Origin: Planctomycetia bacterium
Lineage (GTDB): Bacteria > Planctomycetota > UBA1135 > GCA-002686595
NCBI GenBank assembly: GCA_005799545.1
Contig: SYGM01000053.1
Coordinates: forward strand, 1 to 32,337
Length of the DNA stretch: 32,337 nucleotides
Direction: 5' to 3'
Below, piece after piece: positions 3,096-12,557 of this stretch. The stretch's first letter is position 1, and each line of letters starts with the position of its first letter. The notes below the pieces were generated by a model. The model did not search any database. It saw only the letters and a list, made by a program, of their open reading frames with translations, and was not told where the DNA came from. Made by a program: the position numbers and the translations under genes.

Positions 3096-3848
3096 TCATT
3101 CTTGTCGTCGTCTGCGTTGTGCGATGAGTCCGGGCAGCAGCTCCAACGCTCGCATCGTAGCCAGCGCAGTGCGCACGCGCTCGCCGGTGCGCGTCTCTTC
3201 CAGTGCCAGTTCCGCACAGGCGCGGCGACATTCCTCGATCACACCGGCGGCGGCTTCGAGATCCGACTCCTCGAGCCATGTCAGCGCCATGCGATCGTAG
3301 GCACGGATGCGCACCAGCGGATCCTCCGCCATGAGCGCCAGTCTTCGCCAAGCCCGGCGCGCATCGCTCATGCGTCCGCGCGATTGCTCGATGGCCCCGC
3401 ACCAATGGGCAGCTTCCTCGCGCAGGGCGGAGCGGGCCAGCGGATCGAGCTCGATCTGGGACAGCAGCTGCAGGGCCGACTCCAACCGACCCGCTCGACG
3501 GTCCAGATGAGCCAACTCGAGGCGTGCGCGGTCGCGAAACGTGATCCCCGGCGGCTGATCGGCGGCGATCAGCCACTCTCTGCGGGCGGCCTCCGCATCA
3601 CCGGCGGCACGCAGCAGCTCGCCGGCGCGAAAGCTCGCTTCCGCGCAGACCTCGCGAGCGAACGGGTACTGTCGGCGCACGCTGCGAAAGGCCTCCAGTG
3701 CCTGTTCCCGCAGCCCAGGCTGCTGTGCGGCGGGAGCCGTCCGCCATTCACCGCGCAAGGCCATGGCGCGTGCCAGCGCCGCCTGTGCGGGATCCTCTGG
3801 ACCGCGGCCCTGCCAGCACAGCAGCAGGATGGGCAACCACCACATCAT
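3096..3848 (-). CDS. Exported TPR-like protein coupled to the sigma factor
   Basis: A 250-aa protein. Residues 1-13 (MMWWLPILLLCWQ) form a short hydrophobic signal; a cysteine at 11 makes a lipoprotein possible, although the lipobox is poor. The rest is alanine- and arginine-rich helical hairpins with a TPR-like pattern, for example ALEAFRSVRRQYP, ASFRAGELLRAAGDAEAARREW and ARLELAHLDRRAGRLESALQ. Its ATG overlaps the stop of the upstream sigma-factor gene by 4 nt (ATGA, 3845-3848), so the two are translationally coupled. The position usually held by an anti-sigma factor is here held by an exported TPR protein. It could be a target or a modulator of the sigma factor; I see no anti-sigma zinc motif. 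Confidence 0.7.
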   Translation of the reverse strand: MMWWLPILLLCWQGRGPEDPAQAALARAMALRGEWRTAPAAQQPGLREQALEAFRSVRRQYPFAREVCAEASFRAGELLRAAGDAEAARREWLIAADQPPGITFRDRARLELAHLDRRAGRLESALQLLSQIELDPLARSALREEAAHWCGAIEQSRGRMSDARRAWRRLALMAEDPLVRIRAYDRMALTWLEESDLEAAAGVIEECRRACAELALEETRTGERVRTALATMRALELLPGLIAQRRRRQE

Positions 3849-4435
3849 GTGTTGTCCTCCACGAAGGTCTCGCGGTCCGCGGACTCGAGCAGACGCGGAA
3901 GCTGCTCGTGCAGCCGCTTCAGAACCCGTTTGCGGGCACGGAACATGTGGTCCTTGCCGCGTGCACAGGCGCGCGGCTCCGCTTCGCAGACGCTGGCGAG
4001 CCCGTAGCGCTCCGAGAGCAGGTGCTGGTCGGATCCGCGCAGCTGATACAGAGCCTCGTGCAATTGCTCGAAGAGCTCGTCGCGCAGCACCGGCCGTCCG
4101 CAGATGGTGATGCTCTCGGCCAGCGAGCGCGTGCCCGGTTCGTATTCGCGGCTGGGCAATAGCTCCAGCACCCCGTCGCTGCCCGCCACCGGCGGCTGGC
4201 GGCTCTGCGTCCGCAGCCGTTCGCTCAGGACGCTGCGCGCGATCTGACGCAGCCAGCCGCGCAGATTGCGCGGATCCCGCAGCCGCCTGCGGAAGCGCGC
4301 CGCGCGCAGCAGCGTCTCCTGCAGCAGGTCATCCACCTCATCCGACCGGCGGCTGCGCCGCTCCAGTTCCTTGCGCAGGGCCGGGATGAAGTGCTCCAGC
4401 CCGTCCCAGCAGTATTGCGACTCGTGCGCATCCAT
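3845..4435 (-). CDS. RNA polymerase sigma factor, ECF-like (sigma-70 family)
   Basis: A 196-aa protein. Residues about 12-78 fit sigma region 2: DEVDDLLQETLLRAARF followed by NLRGWLRQIARSVLSERLR, the core-binding and -10 recognition helices. Residues about 125-185 occupy the region 4 position but are diverged, with an atypical EAEPRACARGKDHMF stretch in place of a standard helix-turn-helix. I chose the ATG at 4435 over the upstream in-frame ATG at 4519 because AAGGAG lies 7 nt before it, and because the extra 28 residues are low-complexity and Arg/Ala-rich. The gene shares ATGA with the downstream TPR gene. A candidate ECF promoter lies about 105 nt upstream, consistent with autoregulation. 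Its regulon and inducing signal cannot be inferred. Confidence 0.85.
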   Translation of the reverse strand: MDAHESQYCWDGLEHFIPALRKELERRSRRSDEVDDLLQETLLRAARFRRRLRDPRNLRGWLRQIARSVLSERLRTQSRQPPVAGSDGVLELLPSREYEPGTRSLAESITICGRPVLRDELFEQLHEALYQLRGSDQHLLSERYGLASVCEAEPRACARGKDHMFRARKRVLKRLHEQLPRLLESADRETFVEDNT

Positions 4436-4538
4436 GGCGCGACTCCTTGTTCCGGCACCATCGCCGGCCATGAGGAGACGGGCTCTGCGCGCACCCGCCG
4501 AGCGCAGCGCGCTGCCCACAGCTTCGCGGGCCGCACTG

Positions 4539-5205: not shown

Positions 5206-5679
5206 ATGAGTGCTCCGCAGTCCGTACCGGTGCTCGTCAGCGCCTGCCTGATCGGGCGCTACTGCCGGTATGACGGCCGCACCAACCGCGACCGCGTGCT
5301 GGAGCAGGACCTGGCCGCCAGAGGCGAGCAGGCCGTGCCCTACTGCCCCGAGGAAGAGGGCGGGCTCGCGACGCCGCGCGCCCCGGCCTGGATTGAAAGC
5401 GAGAGCGCCGCTGCGGTGCTCGACGGCCGCGACCGCGTGATCACCGACGGCGGACGCGATGTCACCGCCGAGTTCATCGCCGGCGCTCAAGGCGCTCTCG
5501 CGCTCTGCCGGGCGCACGGCATCCAGCGCGCGTATCTGAAGGCGCGCTCGCCCTCCTGCGGCACCTGCCAGACGCACGTCGGCGGGGCGCTGGTGCAGGG
5601 CCCCGGCGTGACGGCGGCGCACCTGCGGCGCGCAGGGATCGAGACGATCGACGTCGAAGGCAAGCGGGAGCAGCCATGA
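5206..5679 (+). CDS. DUF523 domain protein (YbbK-like)
   Basis: A 157-aa protein with the DUF523 hallmarks: VSACLIGRYCRYDGRTNRD at the N-terminus, a P-E-E-E-GGLATPR segment, DVTAEFIAGAQ, and KARSPSCG with its conserved cysteine. DUF523 proteins are small cytoplasmic proteins of unknown biochemical role, sometimes fused to DUF1722. The start at 5206 agrees with the family N-terminus; an upstream ATG at 5161 would add 15 unrelated residues and overlap the divergent gene. Its stop overlaps the histidine-kinase ATG by 4 nt, so it appears to be the first gene of a three-gene operon with a two-component system. Confidence 0.88.
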   Translation: MSAPQSVPVLVSACLIGRYCRYDGRTNRDRVLEQDLAARGEQAVPYCPEEEGGLATPRAPAWIESESAAAVLDGRDRVITDGGRDVTAEFIAGAQGALALCRAHGIQRAYLKARSPSCGTCQTHVGGALVQGPGVTAAHLRRAGIETIDVEGKREQP

Positions 5680-6917
5680 ACCCGCTGCCGGCCTGGGCCA
5701 CGCGCAGCCACCTGAAGCTGACGCTGTACTTTCTGCTGCTGACGGGCGCAGCGCTGGCCGGATCGTGGTGGGCTTCCGAACGGATGCAGACGGATCCGGA
5801 GCGGATGCAGCGCTGGTGGCTCTTGAGCGTGCTGGCGCTGGGACTCCTCGGTTGGCTGGGTGTGCTGTTTCAGCGGCTGCGCACGCTTCCGGCGCGGCGC
5901 GAGGAGCTGCGCCAGTGGGCCGCGCAGGTGCGCAGCGACGCTCAGCGCTATCAGGAGCTGTTCGAGAGCTCTTCCGATCTTCTGCTGCTGTATGAAGCTG
6001 GCACGCTGCGCCGCATCGATGCCAATGCGCGTGCGCGTGCCGTGCTCGAAGGGCGGCTGCCGCTGGAGAGCGAGCCCTGGCCGCGGCTTCTCAGGGAGCG
6101 GCCGCAGGAGCTGCAGGAGCTCGAAGTGCGCGCTGCGGACGGCAGCTTGCGCCGCATGGAGGTGCGCATCTCCGGCAGTCAGTTCCTGCTGATCAGCCTG
6201 CGCGATCGGACCCGCGAGCGCGAAATGGAGCGCGAGCTCGCGATTCGCGAGCGGCTCTCGTCCATCGGCCTTTTGACGGCGGGTGTGGCGCACGAGATCA
6301 ACAATCCGCTCGAGGGCATCGCCAACTATCTCAAGCTGCTCGAGAACCCGCAGCTCTCCGCGGAGGCGCGTGCGCGCCACCTCGGGCAGGTCCAGCACGG
6401 CCTGGGCCGCATCCGCGACCTCGTGCGGGAGCTGCTGCGCTTCGCGCGTCCGCAGCGCGGCGATGCCAGCATCGATCTCGCGGAGGTCATCCAGGCCGCG
6501 CGCAAGCTCGTGGCGCTCTCCGAGCCCCTGCGCAAGGTCGAATTCCGCTTCGAGGGCTTCGAGCGACCCTGCATCGTCACGGCTGATGCCGGGCGGCTGG
6601 AGCAGGTGTTCGTCAATCTGTTCCTCAATGCCGGTCACGCCATGCAGGGTGCCGGTTCCATCCGGGTGCGCATCCTCCGTGAGAGTGGTGGGCGTGCGGT
6701 CAGTGTGCGCGTGGAGGATTCCGGACCGGGCATCGCACCGGAACACCTCCAGAAGCTCTTCGACCCGTTCTTCACGACCGGGGAAGGCAGCGGACTGGGC
6801 CTGTCGGTGTCCTGGGGCATCGTGCGCGCGCACGGTGGCATGCTGCGCGCCGAGAACCTGCCCGGCGGCGGAGCCTGTTTCGTGCTCGACTTGCCGCTCA
6901 GCTCCGGCACAGGATGA
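5676..6917 (+). CDS. Membrane sensor histidine kinase (NtrB-like)
   Basis: A 413-aa protein. Transmembrane helices lie at about 14-32 and 48-66 with a short loop between. A PAS-like segment spans about 90-175 (RYQELFESSSDLLLLYEAG, then DGSLRRMEVRISG). The dimerisation and phosphoacceptor helix contains AGVAHEINNPLEG with His206. The ATP-binding HATPase_c domain has the N box (NLFLNAGHAM, Asn318), G1 (DSGPGI, 348-353), F box (FDPFF) and G2 (GSGLGL, 371-376). All catalytic elements look intact. The short loop between helices argues for sensing in the membrane or cytoplasm rather than through a large periplasmic domain. Translation is coupled to DUF523 by ATGA, and the regulator gene follows after 4 nt, so the two are almost certainly cognate. 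Confidence 0.95.
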   Translation: MNPLPAWATRSHLKLTLYFLLLTGAALAGSWWASERMQTDPERMQRWWLLSVLALGLLGWLGVLFQRLRTLPARREELRQWAAQVRSDAQRYQELFESSSDLLLLYEAGTLRRIDANARARAVLEGRLPLESEPWPRLLRERPQELQELEVRAADGSLRRMEVRISGSQFLLISLRDRTREREMERELAIRERLSSIGLLTAGVAHEINNPLEGIANYLKLLENPQLSAEARARHLGQVQHGLGRIRDLVRELLRFARPQRGDASIDLAEVIQAARKLVALSEPLRKVEFRFEGFERPCIVTADAGRLEQVFVNLFLNAGHAMQGAGSIRVRILRESGGRAVSVRVEDSGPGIAPEHLQKLFDPFFTTGEGSGLGLSVSWGIVRAHGGMLRAENLPGGGACFVLDLPLSSGTG

Positions 6918-6921
6918 GGCC

Positions 6922-8259
6922 ATGAGCGCAGCTGCCCGCATCCTGATCGTCGACGACGAGGAATTCGTGCGTGAATCGCTGGCCGAGCTGCTGCGCGCGC
7001 ACGGCCATGAAGTTGCGACCGCGCGCAACGGCAACGAAGCGGTGCAGTGGCTCGAGTCCCACCGCTGCGATGTGATCCTCAGCGATCTGCGCATGCCGCG
7101 CGCGGATGGCATGTCGCTGCTCGCGCAGGCGCGCCGCCACGATGCGCGCATTCCGATCGTGCTGATCACCGGCGCCGGCACCGTGCAGGATGCCGTGCAG
7201 GCCATGCGTCAGGGTGCCTTCGACTTCGTGCTGAAGCCGGTGGAACCGGACGCGCTGCTGCGGCTGATGAATCGCGCCGTCGAGCACTCGCGTCTGCAGG
7301 GAGAGCTCGCCGGCCTGCGCACCTCGATGGCGACATGGCGGCGGCGCGAAGCCCTGATCGGCAGCTCCGCGCGCATGCAGCGCCTGCGCCAGGAGATCGA
7401 GCGCTGCACGAGGGCGCGCAGTGTCCTGATCGCCGGACCGTCCGGCAGCGGCAAGGAGCTGATTGCGCGCGAGTGGCACCTGCACGGCCCGCGCGCCAAG
7501 GAGGCGCTAGTGGGCTTCGATCCGCTGCGCGATGTGCTCGCCGAGCGCGCTCTGCAGGCCGAGGGCGGCACGCTGATGCTGCTCAATGTCGGCGAAAGCG
7601 GGCCGGCCCTGCAGCTGGAGCTCGCCCGTCTGATCGAACAGGGCGAGGTGCGCAGCGCCGCCGGAGGCACGCGCGTGCTCCATCTGGGCATCGCAGCGCT
7701 GTTGAAGCAGGAACCCGGCTGCGCGGACGCGCTGGCGGCACTGCGACCGGAATTGCGGGCGGCGCTGGGCGGGGCGCGCATCGACGCTCCCGCTCTGCGC
7801 GAGCACCTGGAGGATCTGCCGGAACTGTGCGCGCACCTCTTGCTGCACGCATCAGGTCCTGACCAGCGCACGACGCAGCTTTCGGAAGAGGCGCTCGCGG
7901 AGCTGCGCGAACACGAGTGGTCTGGCAACGTCGATGAGCTGCGCAATGTGCTCGAACGCGCCTCGCTGGCGGCTTCTCCGGATGCCCCCATGGCGGGTCT
8001 GCAGGCGGAAAACCTGCGCGAACAGCTGCGCCCGCTGGCGAGCAGACCCGCAGAGTCATCCGGGGGCGAGCTCACGCGGCTCCTGGAGTTCAACCTGCGA
8101 CGGAATGTCGACGCGCGCGAGCGAGAGCTGGTGATCGGCGCGCTCGCGCGCGCCAAGGGCATCAAGAAGGAAGCCTGCGAGCTGCTCGGGATCGATCCGC
8201 GCAACCTCGGCTACTACGTGCGCAAGCACAGGATCCGCGACGCGGAGTGGTCGCGCTGA
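6922..8259 (+). CDS. NtrC-family response regulator with degenerate AAA+ domain
   Basis: A 445-aa protein. The receiver domain (1-120) is complete: DD at 11-12, phospho-acceptor Asp55 in SDLRMPR, Thr/Gly at 83-84 and Lys105. Residues 144-350 are a sigma54-activator AAA+ domain by position. Walker A is kept (GPSGSGK, 172-178). The GAFTGA loop region is deleted, Walker B reads GTLMLLNVGES instead of GTLFLDEIG, and the FREDLYYRL sensor segment is missing. The later HEWSGNVDELRNVLER segment is kept. A Fis-type helix-turn-helix (KKEACELLGIDPRNLGYYV) lies at 416-433. It probably binds DNA and receives phosphate but is unlikely to remodel sigma54 polymerase. GGATGAGG precedes the ATG at 6922; the longer in-frame extension upstream is the shadow of the kinase gene. 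Confidence 0.92.
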   Translation: MSAAARILIVDDEEFVRESLAELLRAHGHEVATARNGNEAVQWLESHRCDVILSDLRMPRADGMSLLAQARRHDARIPIVLITGAGTVQDAVQAMRQGAFDFVLKPVEPDALLRLMNRAVEHSRLQGELAGLRTSMATWRRREALIGSSARMQRLRQEIERCTRARSVLIAGPSGSGKELIAREWHLHGPRAKEALVGFDPLRDVLAERALQAEGGTLMLLNVGESGPALQLELARLIEQGEVRSAAGGTRVLHLGIAALLKQEPGCADALAALRPELRAALGGARIDAPALREHLEDLPELCAHLLLHASGPDQRTTQLSEEALAELREHEWSGNVDELRNVLERASLAASPDAPMAGLQAENLREQLRPLASRPAESSGGELTRLLEFNLRRNVDARERELVIGALARAKGIKKEACELLGIDPRNLGYYVRKHRIRDAEWSR

Positions 8260-8300: not shown

Positions 8301-9065
8301 TCAGGCGCGGGGACGCGCGATCACCAGCACGTGGAAACCGAGCAATGACAGGCCCGGCGTCGCGCACAGCACCCGATCCAGCCCCAGGAAGAAGCGCGTG
8401 ATCCAGACATTGCCCGGGATGTGCTTGAGCACGCCGAGGTGGTCGGGGAAACCGGCGAACACGTAGGCGAACACGCCGTACTTCTTGACCTTGATGACTT
8501 CGAGGCCGCCCTGCTCGCACAGGCGGACGATGCCCTTGCGGGTGAAGCCCTCGTCGCCCTCGTCGAAATGCGTACTTTTCCTGTAGAGCACCGCGCGGGC
8601 AAACCGGATCAGCGGGTTGTCGTTGCAGGGCTCGCTCATGATCAGGACGCCATTCGACCCGAGCACCTCCCGGCAGTTGGCGAGAAAGCGCACGTGGTCG
8701 CGCACGTGGTGCAGCGAGCCCTTGCAGAACACCACATCAAAGGCCCCGGGCTGGAAGGGCAGGCGCTCGGCATCCCCCGTCACCAGCCGCGCCCCGGGAA
8801 TGTACTGCTCCGAGACCCGCAGCATGTCATGGCTGATGTCCAGGCCCACCGCACCGGGGTGCTTGGCATCCAGTTCCGCGAGGAAGAAACCCGTCCCGCA
8901 GCCCAGATCGAGCACCCGTCCGGCCCCCGAAGGCACATGCGAGATCATCTCGGCATGCCAATCCTGCTGGAACAGCCGGGAGAAGGGCAGGCTGTAGCGG
9001 TAGGCGTAGCGCGGGGCCAGGGCCCGGTGCAGATCGATCTGCGCTTGCGCGTTGGATGTGGACAT
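8301..9065 (-). CDS. Class I SAM-dependent methyltransferase
   Basis: A 254-aa protein. Motif I VLDLGCGTGFF (51-61) and the acidic GLDIS after the second strand (Asp76) bind S-adenosylmethionine. TGDAERLPFQPGAFDVVFC (about 96-114) fits the Methyltransf_11 family (UbiE-like and related). LHHV at 118-121 is the usual post-motif. The C-terminal part (residues 190-254) is hydrophobic and aromatic and may bind a lipid or polyprenyl substrate. The substrate cannot be named. The gene converges on the regulator gene (41 bp between stops) and diverges from an SGNH hydrolase 35 bp away. A minus-strand TAGACT box at 9089-9084 lies 19 nt before the start. Confidence 0.88.
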   Translation of the reverse strand: MSTSNAQAQIDLHRALAPRYAYRYSLPFSRLFQQDWHAEMISHVPSGAGRVLDLGCGTGFFLAELDAKHPGAVGLDISHDMLRVSEQYIPGARLVTGDAERLPFQPGAFDVVFCKGSLHHVRDHVRFLANCREVLGSNGVLIMSEPCNDNPLIRFARAVLYRKSTHFDEGDEGFTRKGIVRLCEQGGLEVIKVKKYGVFAYVFAGFPDHLGVLKHIPGNVWITRFFLGLDRVLCATPGLSLLGFHVLVIARPRA

Positions 9066-9083
9066 GCGCGGTTGGTTTTGGGA

Positions 9084-9094
9084 AGTCTAACGCT
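9084..9094. promoter_or_regulatory. Overlapping -10-like boxes between methyltransferase and SGNH genes
   Basis: Minus-strand TAGACT (9089-9084) overlaps plus-strand TAACGCT (9088-9094) by 2 bp. The minus box is the same hexamer as the one upstream of the DJ-1 gene. The plus box ends 7 nt before the ATG at 9101. The plus-strand match to TANNNT is imperfect, because the T comes one base late. No -35 element is evident. Confidence 0.3.
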
Positions 9095-9100
9095 TCCAGC

Positions 9101-9880
9101 ATGGAAGCTGCCCCCCCCACCATCGGTTCCCCGTCCCCGGCGCTGAAGCTCTTCGCGGCCGCCGGGCTTGCGCTGGCGCTGGCCGTGGTGCTGGCATGGC
9201 ACGACTGGCTGCCCGGCGGCTACCGGCTGCGCTCCCAGTTCGAATCAGATACCGCCCGCTCACTGCGCGCGACCGAGCTGCACGCATTCCAGCGCCTGGA
9301 AGAATTTGCCGAGTCCAATCCGGCCGCGCCGCGCGGAGCCACGCTGTTCCTCGGCTCCTCGACGATCGAGCGCTTTCCTCTGGAGGAGTGCTTCCCGGGT
9401 AAGCCCTGCCTGGATCGCGGCATCAACAACGCGGACCTCCGGCTTCTGCACGCGGTGCTGGCGGAAGTGCTGCCGCGCCAGAAGCTGCGCGCAGCCGTGA
9501 TTTATGCAGGCAGTCCGGATCTGCACGCCGGCAGGCCCGTCGAGGAGATCCTGCTCGGGATGCGGCAGCTGGTGCAGCGCCTGCGTCTTTCCGAGGGCAT
9601 CAACCTGCCGATCGCCCTGATCGGCGTGATGCCGGCGCGTGAAACCACGCCGGAGCGCGCCGGAGAGCTGCGCGCGCTGGACCGCGGTCTGATGGAGCTG
9701 ACGCGCGATCTGAACCTCTCCTATGTGCCTACGCTGCGACCCCCGCTGGTCGACTCCGAACTGCGGCTCAACGCCGCGATCTCGATCGATGATCGCCACC
9801 TATCGCCGGCGGGCTACTCGATTCTGGCGCGCTGGCTGATCGAGGAAGGCGGCGAGGCCGGCCGGGGACTGGCGCCGTGA
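9101..9880 (+). CDS. Membrane-anchored SGNH/GDSL-type hydrolase
   Basis: A 259-aa protein. One N-terminal hydrophobic helix (about 15-33) anchors or exports it. Block I LFLGSSTIERF carries the nucleophile Ser86. RGINNA (106-111) supplies the block II glycine. Block V DDRHLSP gives the Asp230/His233 pair. Block III, normally GxND, reads AGSPD, so the oxyanion-hole Asn is lost. The SGNH family contains esterases and acetyltransferases acting on polysaccharides; here it lies next to a flippase gene and a second SGNH gene, suggesting modification of an exported glycan. The start at 9101 is preferred over the in-frame ATG at 9056 because the latter overlaps the divergent gene. Confidence 0.75.
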   Translation: MEAAPPTIGSPSPALKLFAAAGLALALAVVLAWHDWLPGGYRLRSQFESDTARSLRATELHAFQRLEEFAESNPAAPRGATLFLGSSTIERFPLEECFPGKPCLDRGINNADLRLLHAVLAEVLPRQKLRAAVIYAGSPDLHAGRPVEEILLGMRQLVQRLRLSEGINLPIALIGVMPARETTPERAGELRALDRGLMELTRDLNLSYVPTLRPPLVDSELRLNAAISIDDRHLSPAGYSILARWLIEEGGEAGRGLAP

Positions 9881-9896
9881 TGGAAACGCTGCACTC

Positions 9897-11408
9897 ATGC
9901 TGAGAAGCGTCGTCGGCACCTGGGGGCTCAATGTGCTGCAGATGGCGGCGCTGCTGGTGCTCTCGCCGTGGGTGCTGGCGCGACTGGGGCCGGATCCCAA
10001 CGGATTGTGGACCGCGCTGATCTCGATCACGGGGATCCTGAGCCTGTTCATCCTCGGCGTGCCGATGGCCTCCGTGCGCGCCATCGCCGAAGGCGTCGCG
10101 CGCAAGGATGCCGCCGCGGTGCAGCGTGCGGTTTCAACCTGCATGGCGATCTGCGCGGCGCTGGGGCTGCTGGCGCTGGCGGTGGCGGGAATCGCCTACC
10201 TCTACTTCGACGCACGCGTGCTGGGCGGCACTGCGGGTGCGGGACTCGATCCGCAGACGCTCGACAGCGCGCGGATGGCATTCGGAATCCTCGCGTTGCA
10301 GGTCGCGTGCGGGTTCGTGATGCGCCTGCCGTATGGAATTCTCGAAGCGCACGGCGATTTCCTGGCCCGCAACGGAGTGCAGGCCTTCGAACTGGCGCTG
10401 CGCTTCGCCACGACGATGGCGCTGCTCAGCTGGCGCGCGGAACTCTCGGTGCTGGCGCTGGTGCAGGTGATCTGCATGTTGGCCGAGTTCGCGGTGGCGC
10501 TGATCGTGCTGCGCCGCCGGCATCCAGACATCCGCTTCTCCCTGTGCGGCTATGACCGCACTGCGGCGCGCAGCATCCTCTCCTTCAGCATCTTCGCCAT
10601 GCTGTTGAATGTCGGGGCGCTGCTGGCGTTCCGCCTGGATGGACTGGTCATCAGCTCCTTTCTTCCGGCAAGAGCAGCAACAGAGTTCGATCTTGGCAAC
10701 AAGTTCTTTGACCCGCTGATGCAGCTGGTCATCTCGGTCGGTGCGGTCGTGATGCCGATGGCCACGCGCCTGAAGACGGGCGGCGACACGGTAACGCTGC
10801 GCGCGATCTTCCTGCGCTGGTCCAGGCTCTCGCTCTCGCTGGTGCTGCTCGTGGGCGGATACCTGATGGTGCTGGGCCCGGAGTTTCTCGCGACCTGGGT
10901 CGGCGAGGAGTACCGCGAGCCCTCCGGCGGCGTGCTGCGCGTGCTGATGGCTTCGTTCTTCTTCTATCTGCCGGTGCGCGGCGTTGCGCTGCCGATCCTG
11001 ATGGGCATGGGCAAGCCCAAAGCCCCGGCGCTGTGCCTGCTGGCGATGGGCCTCGCGAACCTCGGCCTGAGCCTCGCGCTGGTGACTCCGCAGGGCATCT
11101 TCGGGGTGGCGCTGGGCACGGCGATCCCGAATCTCGCCTTCGCCGTGTTCGTGCTGGTGCTCGCCTGCCGCGAGCTCGAGGTGAGCGTGCTGGATTGGGT
11201 CCGTGAGTCGGCGCTGCGCCCGCTCGTCGGGGCCGCCATCCCGGTGTCGGCGCTGGCTCTGGTCGCGTGGCAATGGAACACAGGCGGCTGGCCGATGCTG
11301 ATCGGACTGGGCATCGGCTATGTGCTGCTCTTCGCGCTGGTGTGGTTCGCTTGGGTTCTGCGTGGTGATCCGGATCTCGATCTGTCACGGCGCTGGAAGC
11401 GGGGCTAG
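9897..11408 (+). CDS. MOP-superfamily flippase (Wzx/polysaccharide biosynthesis type)
   Basis: A 503-aa integral membrane protein with about 12-14 hydrophobic helices spread over its whole length and short basic loops, the length and pattern of the PST/Wzx branch of the multidrug/oligosaccharidyl-lipid/polysaccharide exporters. The N-terminal stretch GTWGLNVLQMAALLVLSPWVLARLGP has the usual opening of these flippases, with a conserved Gly and aromatic residues before LWTALISITGI. It would move a lipid-linked glycan across the inner membrane. It sits 16 bp after one SGNH gene and 3 bp before another, most likely in one operon. No glycosyltransferase or Wzy-like gene is adjacent, so its glycan is unknown. 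Confidence 0.85.
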   Translation: MLRSVVGTWGLNVLQMAALLVLSPWVLARLGPDPNGLWTALISITGILSLFILGVPMASVRAIAEGVARKDAAAVQRAVSTCMAICAALGLLALAVAGIAYLYFDARVLGGTAGAGLDPQTLDSARMAFGILALQVACGFVMRLPYGILEAHGDFLARNGVQAFELALRFATTMALLSWRAELSVLALVQVICMLAEFAVALIVLRRRHPDIRFSLCGYDRTAARSILSFSIFAMLLNVGALLAFRLDGLVISSFLPARAATEFDLGNKFFDPLMQLVISVGAVVMPMATRLKTGGDTVTLRAIFLRWSRLSLSLVLLVGGYLMVLGPEFLATWVGEEYREPSGGVLRVLMASFFFYLPVRGVALPILMGMGKPKAPALCLLAMGLANLGLSLALVTPQGIFGVALGTAIPNLAFAVFVLVLACRELEVSVLDWVRESALRPLVGAAIPVSALALVAWQWNTGGWPMLIGLGIGYVLLFALVWFAWVLRGDPDLDLSRRWKRG

Positions 11409-11411
11409 AGC

Positions 11412-12557
11412 ATGTCCCCGCAAGCCTGGCTGTTTCTCGTGATCGCACTGCCGCTGCTGTTTGCCGCGGCGGAACTGATCGCGCGCAGCTGGATCCGCTC
11501 CCGGGCGCGCTATTTCTGCTGGCCGCCGCATACGCGCTTCCGGATGCCGCTCGATCGCACCGTCTTCGCCAGCGGCGATGCCGAGGTGCGCTTCGACGTC
11601 AATCGTCTCGGTGAGCGCGGCGACGCACCGCCGCATTCCTTTGACGGCGTGTACCGCGTTCTGGTCGCGGGCGGCTCGGCAGCGGAGTGTTACTACCTCG
11701 ATCAGGACAGCAGCTGGCCGGGCCGGTTGCAGCAGCTGCTTTCCCGACCTGAGGCCTGTCAGCGGCTCGACGTCCGCGCAGCGCACGTCGGCAACATCGC
11801 GCGCTCGCTCGTGCCCTGCCGCGCGATCCGCTACCAGCTGGAAAAGCTCCTGCCGCAGCTGCCCCACAGCGATGCCGCGCTGCTGATGGTCGGCGCGAGC
11901 GATCTGGTGACCTGGCTCGAGCAGCACACGCCCGCACAGATCGATCCGGGCGGCTACGCGCTCGATTCGATCTTCGGACTGCATCCCGAGCGCAGCTTCG
12001 GCTGGAAGCCGGGCCAGCTGGCACTGCGACGCGCGGCTGCCAGCGCGCAGCGCGCCCTGCTGCGGCCCGTCGAGCGACGCGAGACCTCGGGCAAGCGACT
12101 GGCGGCGAACCGCGCCATGCGCGCCGGTGCCAAACAGATCCTTGAGGACATCGCGGATCCGGCACCGATGCTGCAGCGCTACGAAGCCGATCTGCGCGAG
12201 GTCCTGCGCGCGCTCAAGCGCCATTCGAAGCGCGTGGTGGTCGTGCAGCAGATCTGGCTCGAAAAATCCCTGACGCCGGAGGAAGCGCGTCAGCTGTGGA
12301 TGTTCGCCGCGGGCCGGCCCTACAAGGAACAGGTCGACGCCTACTACGCGCACGAGGTGATCTGGCCGTTGATGCGGGCCATCTACGAAATCGGTGGCCG
12401 AGTCGCCCGAGAGGAAGGCGTCGAGGCACTTGATCTGCAGAATCGGGTGCCGAGCGATCTGGAGCACTACTACGACGACATGCACCACACGCCGAAGGGT
12501 TGTGCACTCGTGGCGCGCCTCATCGCGGACCATCTCACGGGCGAAAGCCCCGCCTGA
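11412..12557 (+). CDS. Second membrane-anchored SGNH/GDSL-type hydrolase
   Basis: A 381-aa protein with an N-terminal helix at about 5-22, then an exported domain. Block I is LVAGGSAAE with Ser89; block II is HVGN (Gly127, Asn128); block III is MVGASDL in place of GxND; block V is DDMHHTP with Asp355 and His358. The layout resembles the SGNH proteins of exopolysaccharide loci, such as AlgX/AlgJ-like O-acetylation proteins, but I see no membrane-bound O-acetyltransferase gene here. It begins 3 bp after the flippase stop, which indicates co-transcription. Like the SGNH protein at 9101 it lacks the block III Asn, so the two may share an altered active site. Confidence 0.75.
   Translation: MSPQAWLFLVIALPLLFAAAELIARSWIRSRARYFCWPPHTRFRMPLDRTVFASGDAEVRFDVNRLGERGDAPPHSFDGVYRVLVAGGSAAECYYLDQDSSWPGRLQQLLSRPEACQRLDVRAAHVGNIARSLVPCRAIRYQLEKLLPQLPHSDAALLMVGASDLVTWLEQHTPAQIDPGGYALDSIFGLHPERSFGWKPGQLALRRAAASAQRALLRPVERRETSGKRLAANRAMRAGAKQILEDIADPAPMLQRYEADLREVLRALKRHSKRVVVVQQIWLEKSLTPEEARQLWMFAAGRPYKEQVDAYYAHEVIWPLMRAIYEIGGRVAREEGVEALDLQNRVPSDLEHYYDDMHHTPKGCALVARLIADHLTGESPA

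Follow-up and report, generated by a model that had tools for sequence, protein, structure and literature searches.

The gene at positions 6922..8259 (+ strand) of the window, i.e. the whole stretch of 32,337 nucleotides of planctomycete DNA that was analyzed, encodes an NtrC-type response regulator of 445 amino acids with an eroded AAA+ domain, as judged from the open reading frame, Pfam and alignment. Motif losses, orthology, graded decay, an acceleration restricted to one domain and the predicted fold were computed here. The explanation that we favor, with a probability of roughly 0.72, is a sigma54-independent, phosphorylation-controlled DNA-binding protein with a pseudo-AAA+ scaffold, which would have arisen from a probable sigma54-dependent ancestor.

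The reading frame of the regulator is intact over all 445 residues and starts 5 bp past the stop codon of the gene for the partner sensor histidine kinase (5676..6917, +). The HisKA (VAHEINNP) and HATPase_c domains of this intact kinase exceed the Pfam cut-offs, a weak PAS_8 match falls under the cut-off, and the catalytic residues of receiver and kinase are all kept. This confirmed an earlier note on this DNA, which had described an intact gene paired with a fully equipped kinase. A gene for a DUF523/2-thiouracil desulfurase protein (5206..5679, +) overlaps the kinase start by 4 bp and is probably the first gene of the operon; it is not conserved beside orthologues of the regulator.

For a comparison of motifs, the regulator was aligned to 30 orthologues and 10 paralogues; the names sensor I, arginine fingers and sensor II are used in their established sense for the NtrC/PspF AAA+ family. 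Pfam revealed a receiver (1.7e-31), an AAA+ lid, a Fis-type helix-turn-helix (HTH) and a broken Sigma54_activat match that covers only positions 1-56 of 168. Pfam, alignment, fold and tree together identify a protein composed of receiver, AAA+, lid and Fis HTH, which belongs to the NtrC family by descent and is homologous end to end. The receiver domain (residues 4-124; 6931..7293, +) contains the phosphoacceptor D55 (7084-7086, +) and K105, and the Walker A motif GPSGSGKE (172-179; 7435..7458, +) contains K178. The HTH (386-438; 8077..8235, +) with the orthologue signature LGIDPRNLGYYVRKH is the most conserved domain. Receiver, Walker A and HTH had also been listed as kept in the earlier note, and its observations on the GAFTGA loop and on Walker B were correct as well. 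At loop L1 about 22 residues including the whole GAFTGA are absent together with the flanking helix: residues 200-209 (7519..7548, +), the site of the deleted helix 3/L1 loop, occupy the place of about 32 GAFTGA-containing residues in the orthologues. The Walker B position reads TLMLLNVG (217-224; 7570..7593, +), with D exchanged for L221 and E for N222. In the sensor I strand (256-262; 7687..7707, +) T is replaced by L261 and N by K262. The arginine/sensor segment, previously described as missing, aligns without a gap but is altered: besides K262, the arginine-finger stretch (275-281; 7744..7764, +) retains R275 and has A281 instead of the second Arg. The GNVDELRN segment is present as claimed, but in this sensor II stretch (WSGNVDEL, 333-340; 7918..7941, +) the Arg typical of this position (42 of 43 proteins in the alignment) is changed to D338 and the preceding P to S334.

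Of the features of a sigma54 activator the regulator retains the Walker A lysine; the GAFTGA loop, the Walker B D/E and the full set of sensor I Asn, both arginine fingers and sensor II are gone. The absence of the loop is shared with the GAFTGA-less NtrC-like regulators of sigma70 promoters. The 21 sound-loop orthologues carry the lost residues without exception, and the paralogues almost without exception, so that this pattern of motif loss is far from chance.

Orthologues were defined by whole-protein searches of the family and the order, an HTH-profile search and a scan of public genomes. The scores dropped from 550 to 433 bits in the whole-protein search of the family and from 70.5 to 44.7 bits in the HTH-profile search, in which the window HTH reached 110 bits; the public genome scan detected orthologues in Planctomycetota and Acidobacteria MAGs. 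The group is characterized by the HTH signature LGIDxRNLxYY, and the orthologous kinase adjoins the regulator in nearly all loci checked. The window regulator belongs to this group according to its HTH score above the gap and the adjacent orthologous kinase. No close relative of the window gene was found in the collections searched; the nearest single-protein matches are G018 (48%) and G005 (44%).

Intact GAF/GSF[T/S]GA and DE motifs are present in 21 of the 31 full-length orthologues sharing the signature. The loop is damaged in the other 10, in graded states and in at least three lineages, and the window regulator is the extreme case. At loop position 4, Ser counts as functional, but Pro as defective (PMC3162934). 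The damaged loop reads GAFPGA in G031, GAFAAA in G083 and G082, GVIPGV in DHS20C15 (L109) and GSFPGA in two Acidobacteria (L106, L108), in which the second arginine finger is changed to Leu. G084 combines a loop deletion with retained ATPase motifs. In G018 and G005 the loop is deleted; their catalytic Glu is replaced by D and L, respectively, and their sensor I Asn by A and T. Separate damage was observed at locus L096, where the loop reads GSFTSA. The earlier note had envisaged a new subclass in which all orthologues lack the motifs. Since 21 orthologues keep them, this is no such subclass; the lineage is instead eroding progressively, with a milder form of the erosion in the nearest relatives.

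In the whole-protein tree the branch of the window regulator has a length of 1.35, compared to a median of 0.33. A tree of kinase, receiver and HTH, excluding the AAA+ columns, placed the window protein in a clade of eight (support 96/96) together with G018, G005, the sound G026 and genus g32; in this tree the sound G026 groups with genus g32. A single loop loss within the clade was not rejected on this tree (AU p 0.09), and the whole-protein tree weakly favors one loss (79/54). The seven damaged members may trace back to one or to two losses of the loop.

Branch lengths of the individual domains were computed on one fixed topology. For the window lineage they amount to 2.08 for AAA+, 1.11 for the lid, 0.81 for the receiver, 0.78 for the kinase and 0.27 for the HTH, the last being one of the shorter values for a lineage this distant. 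In sound lineages (e.g. G026, G104, G065, G007 and G023b) AAA+ usually evolves more slowly than all other domains or comes close to the slowest, with 0.28 in G026 versus 0.87 for the receiver and 0.69 for the kinase, and 0.09 in G065 versus 0.32 and 0.23; slight deviations from this pattern occur on a few short branches (e.g. G067). The identity between the window protein and G018 is 34% in AAA+, 56% in the receiver and 69% in the HTH. With regard to dN/dS, the synonymous sites of this pair are near saturation. Within genus g32 the dN/dS of AAA+ is 0.29-0.38 in three more distant pairs and 0.11 in the closest pair, compared to 0.08-0.20 in four pairs with sound loops; constraint on the AAA+ domain of this genus is relaxed, with dN/dS still below 1. 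The codon-position GC pattern is normal across the AAA+ part of the window gene, which has lost constraint in one domain and does not show decay of the whole gene.

An AlphaFold2 model was calculated from a 31-row alignment, which contains sound relatives and may pull the model towards their fold. The mean pLDDT is 88.5, most blocks of the AAA+ core exceed 90, and all five core strands of AAA+ occur in order. The best PDB fold matches are Brucella NtrX with ATP or ADP, followed by NtrC1, LuxO, VpsR and FleQ. In this model the AAA+ fold seems to be kept despite the lost chemistry.

Brucella abortus NtrX (PDB 5m7n, 5m7o, 5m7p), with structures solved with ATP and ADP, is the best match of the window regulator both by sequence (1.5e-44) and by fold (2.6e-32). 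It has the same arrangement of a receiver, an AAA+ domain without GAFTGA loop, a lid and a Fis HTH, but in the sequence alignment it retains LDEVA at Walker B and EDLFHRL in the arginine stretch, and both of these motifs are lost in the window regulator. The window protein does not belong to the NtrX family as defined by NCBIfam NF051870 (221.8 bits versus a curated cut-off of 600). Like the window protein, the NtrC proteins of R. capsulatus and Caulobacter belong to two-component systems, are of the NtrC type and carry a deletion around GAFTGA; they are linked to sigma70 promoters and need phosphorylation (PMC10274813). In defined medium Caulobacter NtrC depends on K178 and on the Walker B residue D235, which means that its ATPase is important (PMC10274813); the window regulator differs in having no Walker B acids. 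VpsR of Vibrio cholerae, also among the fold matches, is NtrC-like, lacks GAFTGA as the window regulator does, acts at sigma70 promoters and is reportedly independent of ATP (PMC10274813); according to the title of PDB 7v2b it binds c-di-GMP. Phosphorylation is reportedly not required for VpsR (PMC10274813), whereas the window pair comprises a full kinase and receiver. TyrR, DhaR and HupR have a defective GAFTGA and depend on sigma70 (PMC3162934). None of these three was found in the LGIDxRNLxYY orthologous group. TyrR and DhaR are not known to be response regulators with the architecture of the window regulator. In the best reading the window protein resembles Brucella NtrX or R. capsulatus NtrC and is further eroded.

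In a first alternative, ATP binding without hydrolysis controls the regulator: Walker A would load ATP and set the oligomer state or permit activation. The earlier note had also suggested that ATP binding alone sets the oligomer state. This mechanism has a precedent in R. capsulatus NtrC, for which control by ATP binding without hydrolysis was reported (PMC10274813), and it is in line with the retention of all Walker A residues and of the first arginine finger and with the confidently modelled P-loop region. However, the protein no longer has the two Walker B acids, the sensor I and sensor II residues and one of the arginine fingers, and AAA+ as a whole is its fastest-evolving part. We consider control by ATP binding rather unlikely.

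A second alternative is that the system has lost its purpose and that the regulator is decaying with AAA+ first, so that the erosion of this domain could mark the onset of complete decay. The very long AAA+ branch and the graded erosion among relatives would fit to this scenario. The gene neighborhood can be read in the same way: a gene for an ASPIC/UnbV protein with FG-GAP repeats (CRTAC1-like) is a direct neighbor of the regulator gene, in most cases on its downstream side, at several loci of deep-branching orthologues (L072:2728-4452 (-), L060, L076, L159, L096, L111, L100 and L078), which suggests that a kinase-regulator-ASPIC operon is the ancestral arrangement, and no such gene is located beside the window regulator gene. 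On the other hand, the regulator contains neither stop codon nor frameshift, the codon-position GC pattern of the AAA+ part is normal, receiver and kinase evolve at normal rates with all catalytic residues kept, and the HTH branch is short (0.27). An open frame with constraint lost mainly in AAA+ does not correspond to a pseudogene, as the earlier note had also argued, and we regard incipient decay of the whole gene as quite improbable.

According to a third alternative the regulator occupies sigma54 enhancer sites, cannot activate there and blocks an intact activator. The HTH is nearly unchanged relative to sigma54-competent relatives, and both sigma54 and intact activators are still encoded in the genome. 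The source genome, an incomplete draft of 203 contigs that is about 77% complete, contains two intact-looking rpoN genes and other regulators with GAFTGA, GSFTGA or GSYTGA loops; therefore sigma54 control as such persists in this organism. Most genomes of the same planctomycete family contain two genes matching the sigma54 DNA-binding domain. In contrast to what competition would demand, the HTH profile detected no second protein with the same HTH type in the source genome, given its completeness of about 77%, and no intact copy coexisting with a damaged-loop copy in the relatives. A role as competitor has a low probability.

An assembly or sequencing error, which the draft state of the genome would allow and which the earlier note had named as a refuting option, can practically be dismissed, because a single frame runs through the alignment of the entire AAA+ stretch and because G018 and G005, the nearest orthologues, also lack the loop, the catalytic Glu and the sensor I Asn.

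Promoter, inverted-repeat and neighborhood scans revealed no target promoter, regulon or binding site. A sigma54 promoter scan of the loci showed no strong site at the window operon. The sole perfect -24/-12 match (TGGCACGCGAGTTGCA) was found at L110:714-729 (+), about 130 bp behind a fragmentary orthologue (OFTM9), with no equivalent in 200 shuffles of the L110 locus. A sigma70-type scan of the window yielded no promoter, using the E. coli consensus, which says little for a high-GC planctomycete. Inverted repeats as possible HTH sites were limited to an imperfect one in the short divergent gap between DUF523 and DJ-1. As a pointer to the target the neighborhood gave only the kinase, the one gene common to the loci of the window regulator and its orthologues. 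Elsewhere in the window, a probable ECF-like sigma factor with sigma-70 region 2 (3848-4450, -) lies near a TPR-like protein (3099-3848, -), and a polysaccharide flippase-like protein is flanked by two GDSL/SGNH-type proteins (9056-12557, +), possibly an envelope polysaccharide cluster.

Taken together, the strong acceleration of AAA+ alone, with receiver, kinase and HTH under constraint, agrees with the sigma54-independent regulator suggested in the earlier note. For this preferred reading, family knowledge and the precedents in PMC10274813 and PMC3162934 point to phosphorylation, DNA binding and a sigma70-type target; the scaffold role is a proposal. The kinase-regulator pair would have been vertically kept in Planctomycetota and Acidobacteria from an ancestor that was probably a sigma54-dependent activator. 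In the window lineage the sigma54-contacting loop would have been lost first, followed by the catalytic and sensing residues of AAA+. Most likely the partner kinase still passes a phosphoryl group to D55 and the conserved Fis-type HTH still contacts DNA. The regulator may then directly activate or repress promoters of the sigma70-type RNA polymerase without ATP hydrolysis, and AAA+ would remain as a folded scaffold that joins the receiver to the HTH and may hold dimers together.

Sigma54-independent NtrC-like regulators without GAFTGA are already known, mostly as single proteins in the papers cited here. What is new is that the erosion is graded and repeated inside a single orthologous group of kinase-regulator pairs from Planctomycetota and Acidobacteria, and that it reaches an extreme in the window protein; a search of the open-licence literature on GAFTGA and planctomycetes yielded no description of such erosion. 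One group spans sound loops (GAFTGA, GAFSGA), point-damaged loops (GAFPGA, GAFAAA, GSFPGA, GVIPGV) and deleted loops, the latter combined either with an intact ATPase or with loss of the catalytic Glu; at the far end stands an AAA+ domain almost devoid of motifs. Kinase, receiver and HTH are kept. The series can be used to ask in which sequence a regulator gives up sigma54 dependence and ATPase function, and what purpose its AAA+ domain still has afterwards. Annotating such genes as 'sigma54-dependent regulator' is probably incorrect. We tentatively propose that one kinase-regulator pair was repeatedly released from sigma54 in these two phyla, with the window protein as an end point in which a catalytically dead AAA+ domain would join receiver and HTH and act as scaffold or as sensor of ATP occupancy. 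If true, this would provide a natural stepwise series from a sigma54 activator to a sigma70-type regulator with a nearly unchanged DNA-reading domain.
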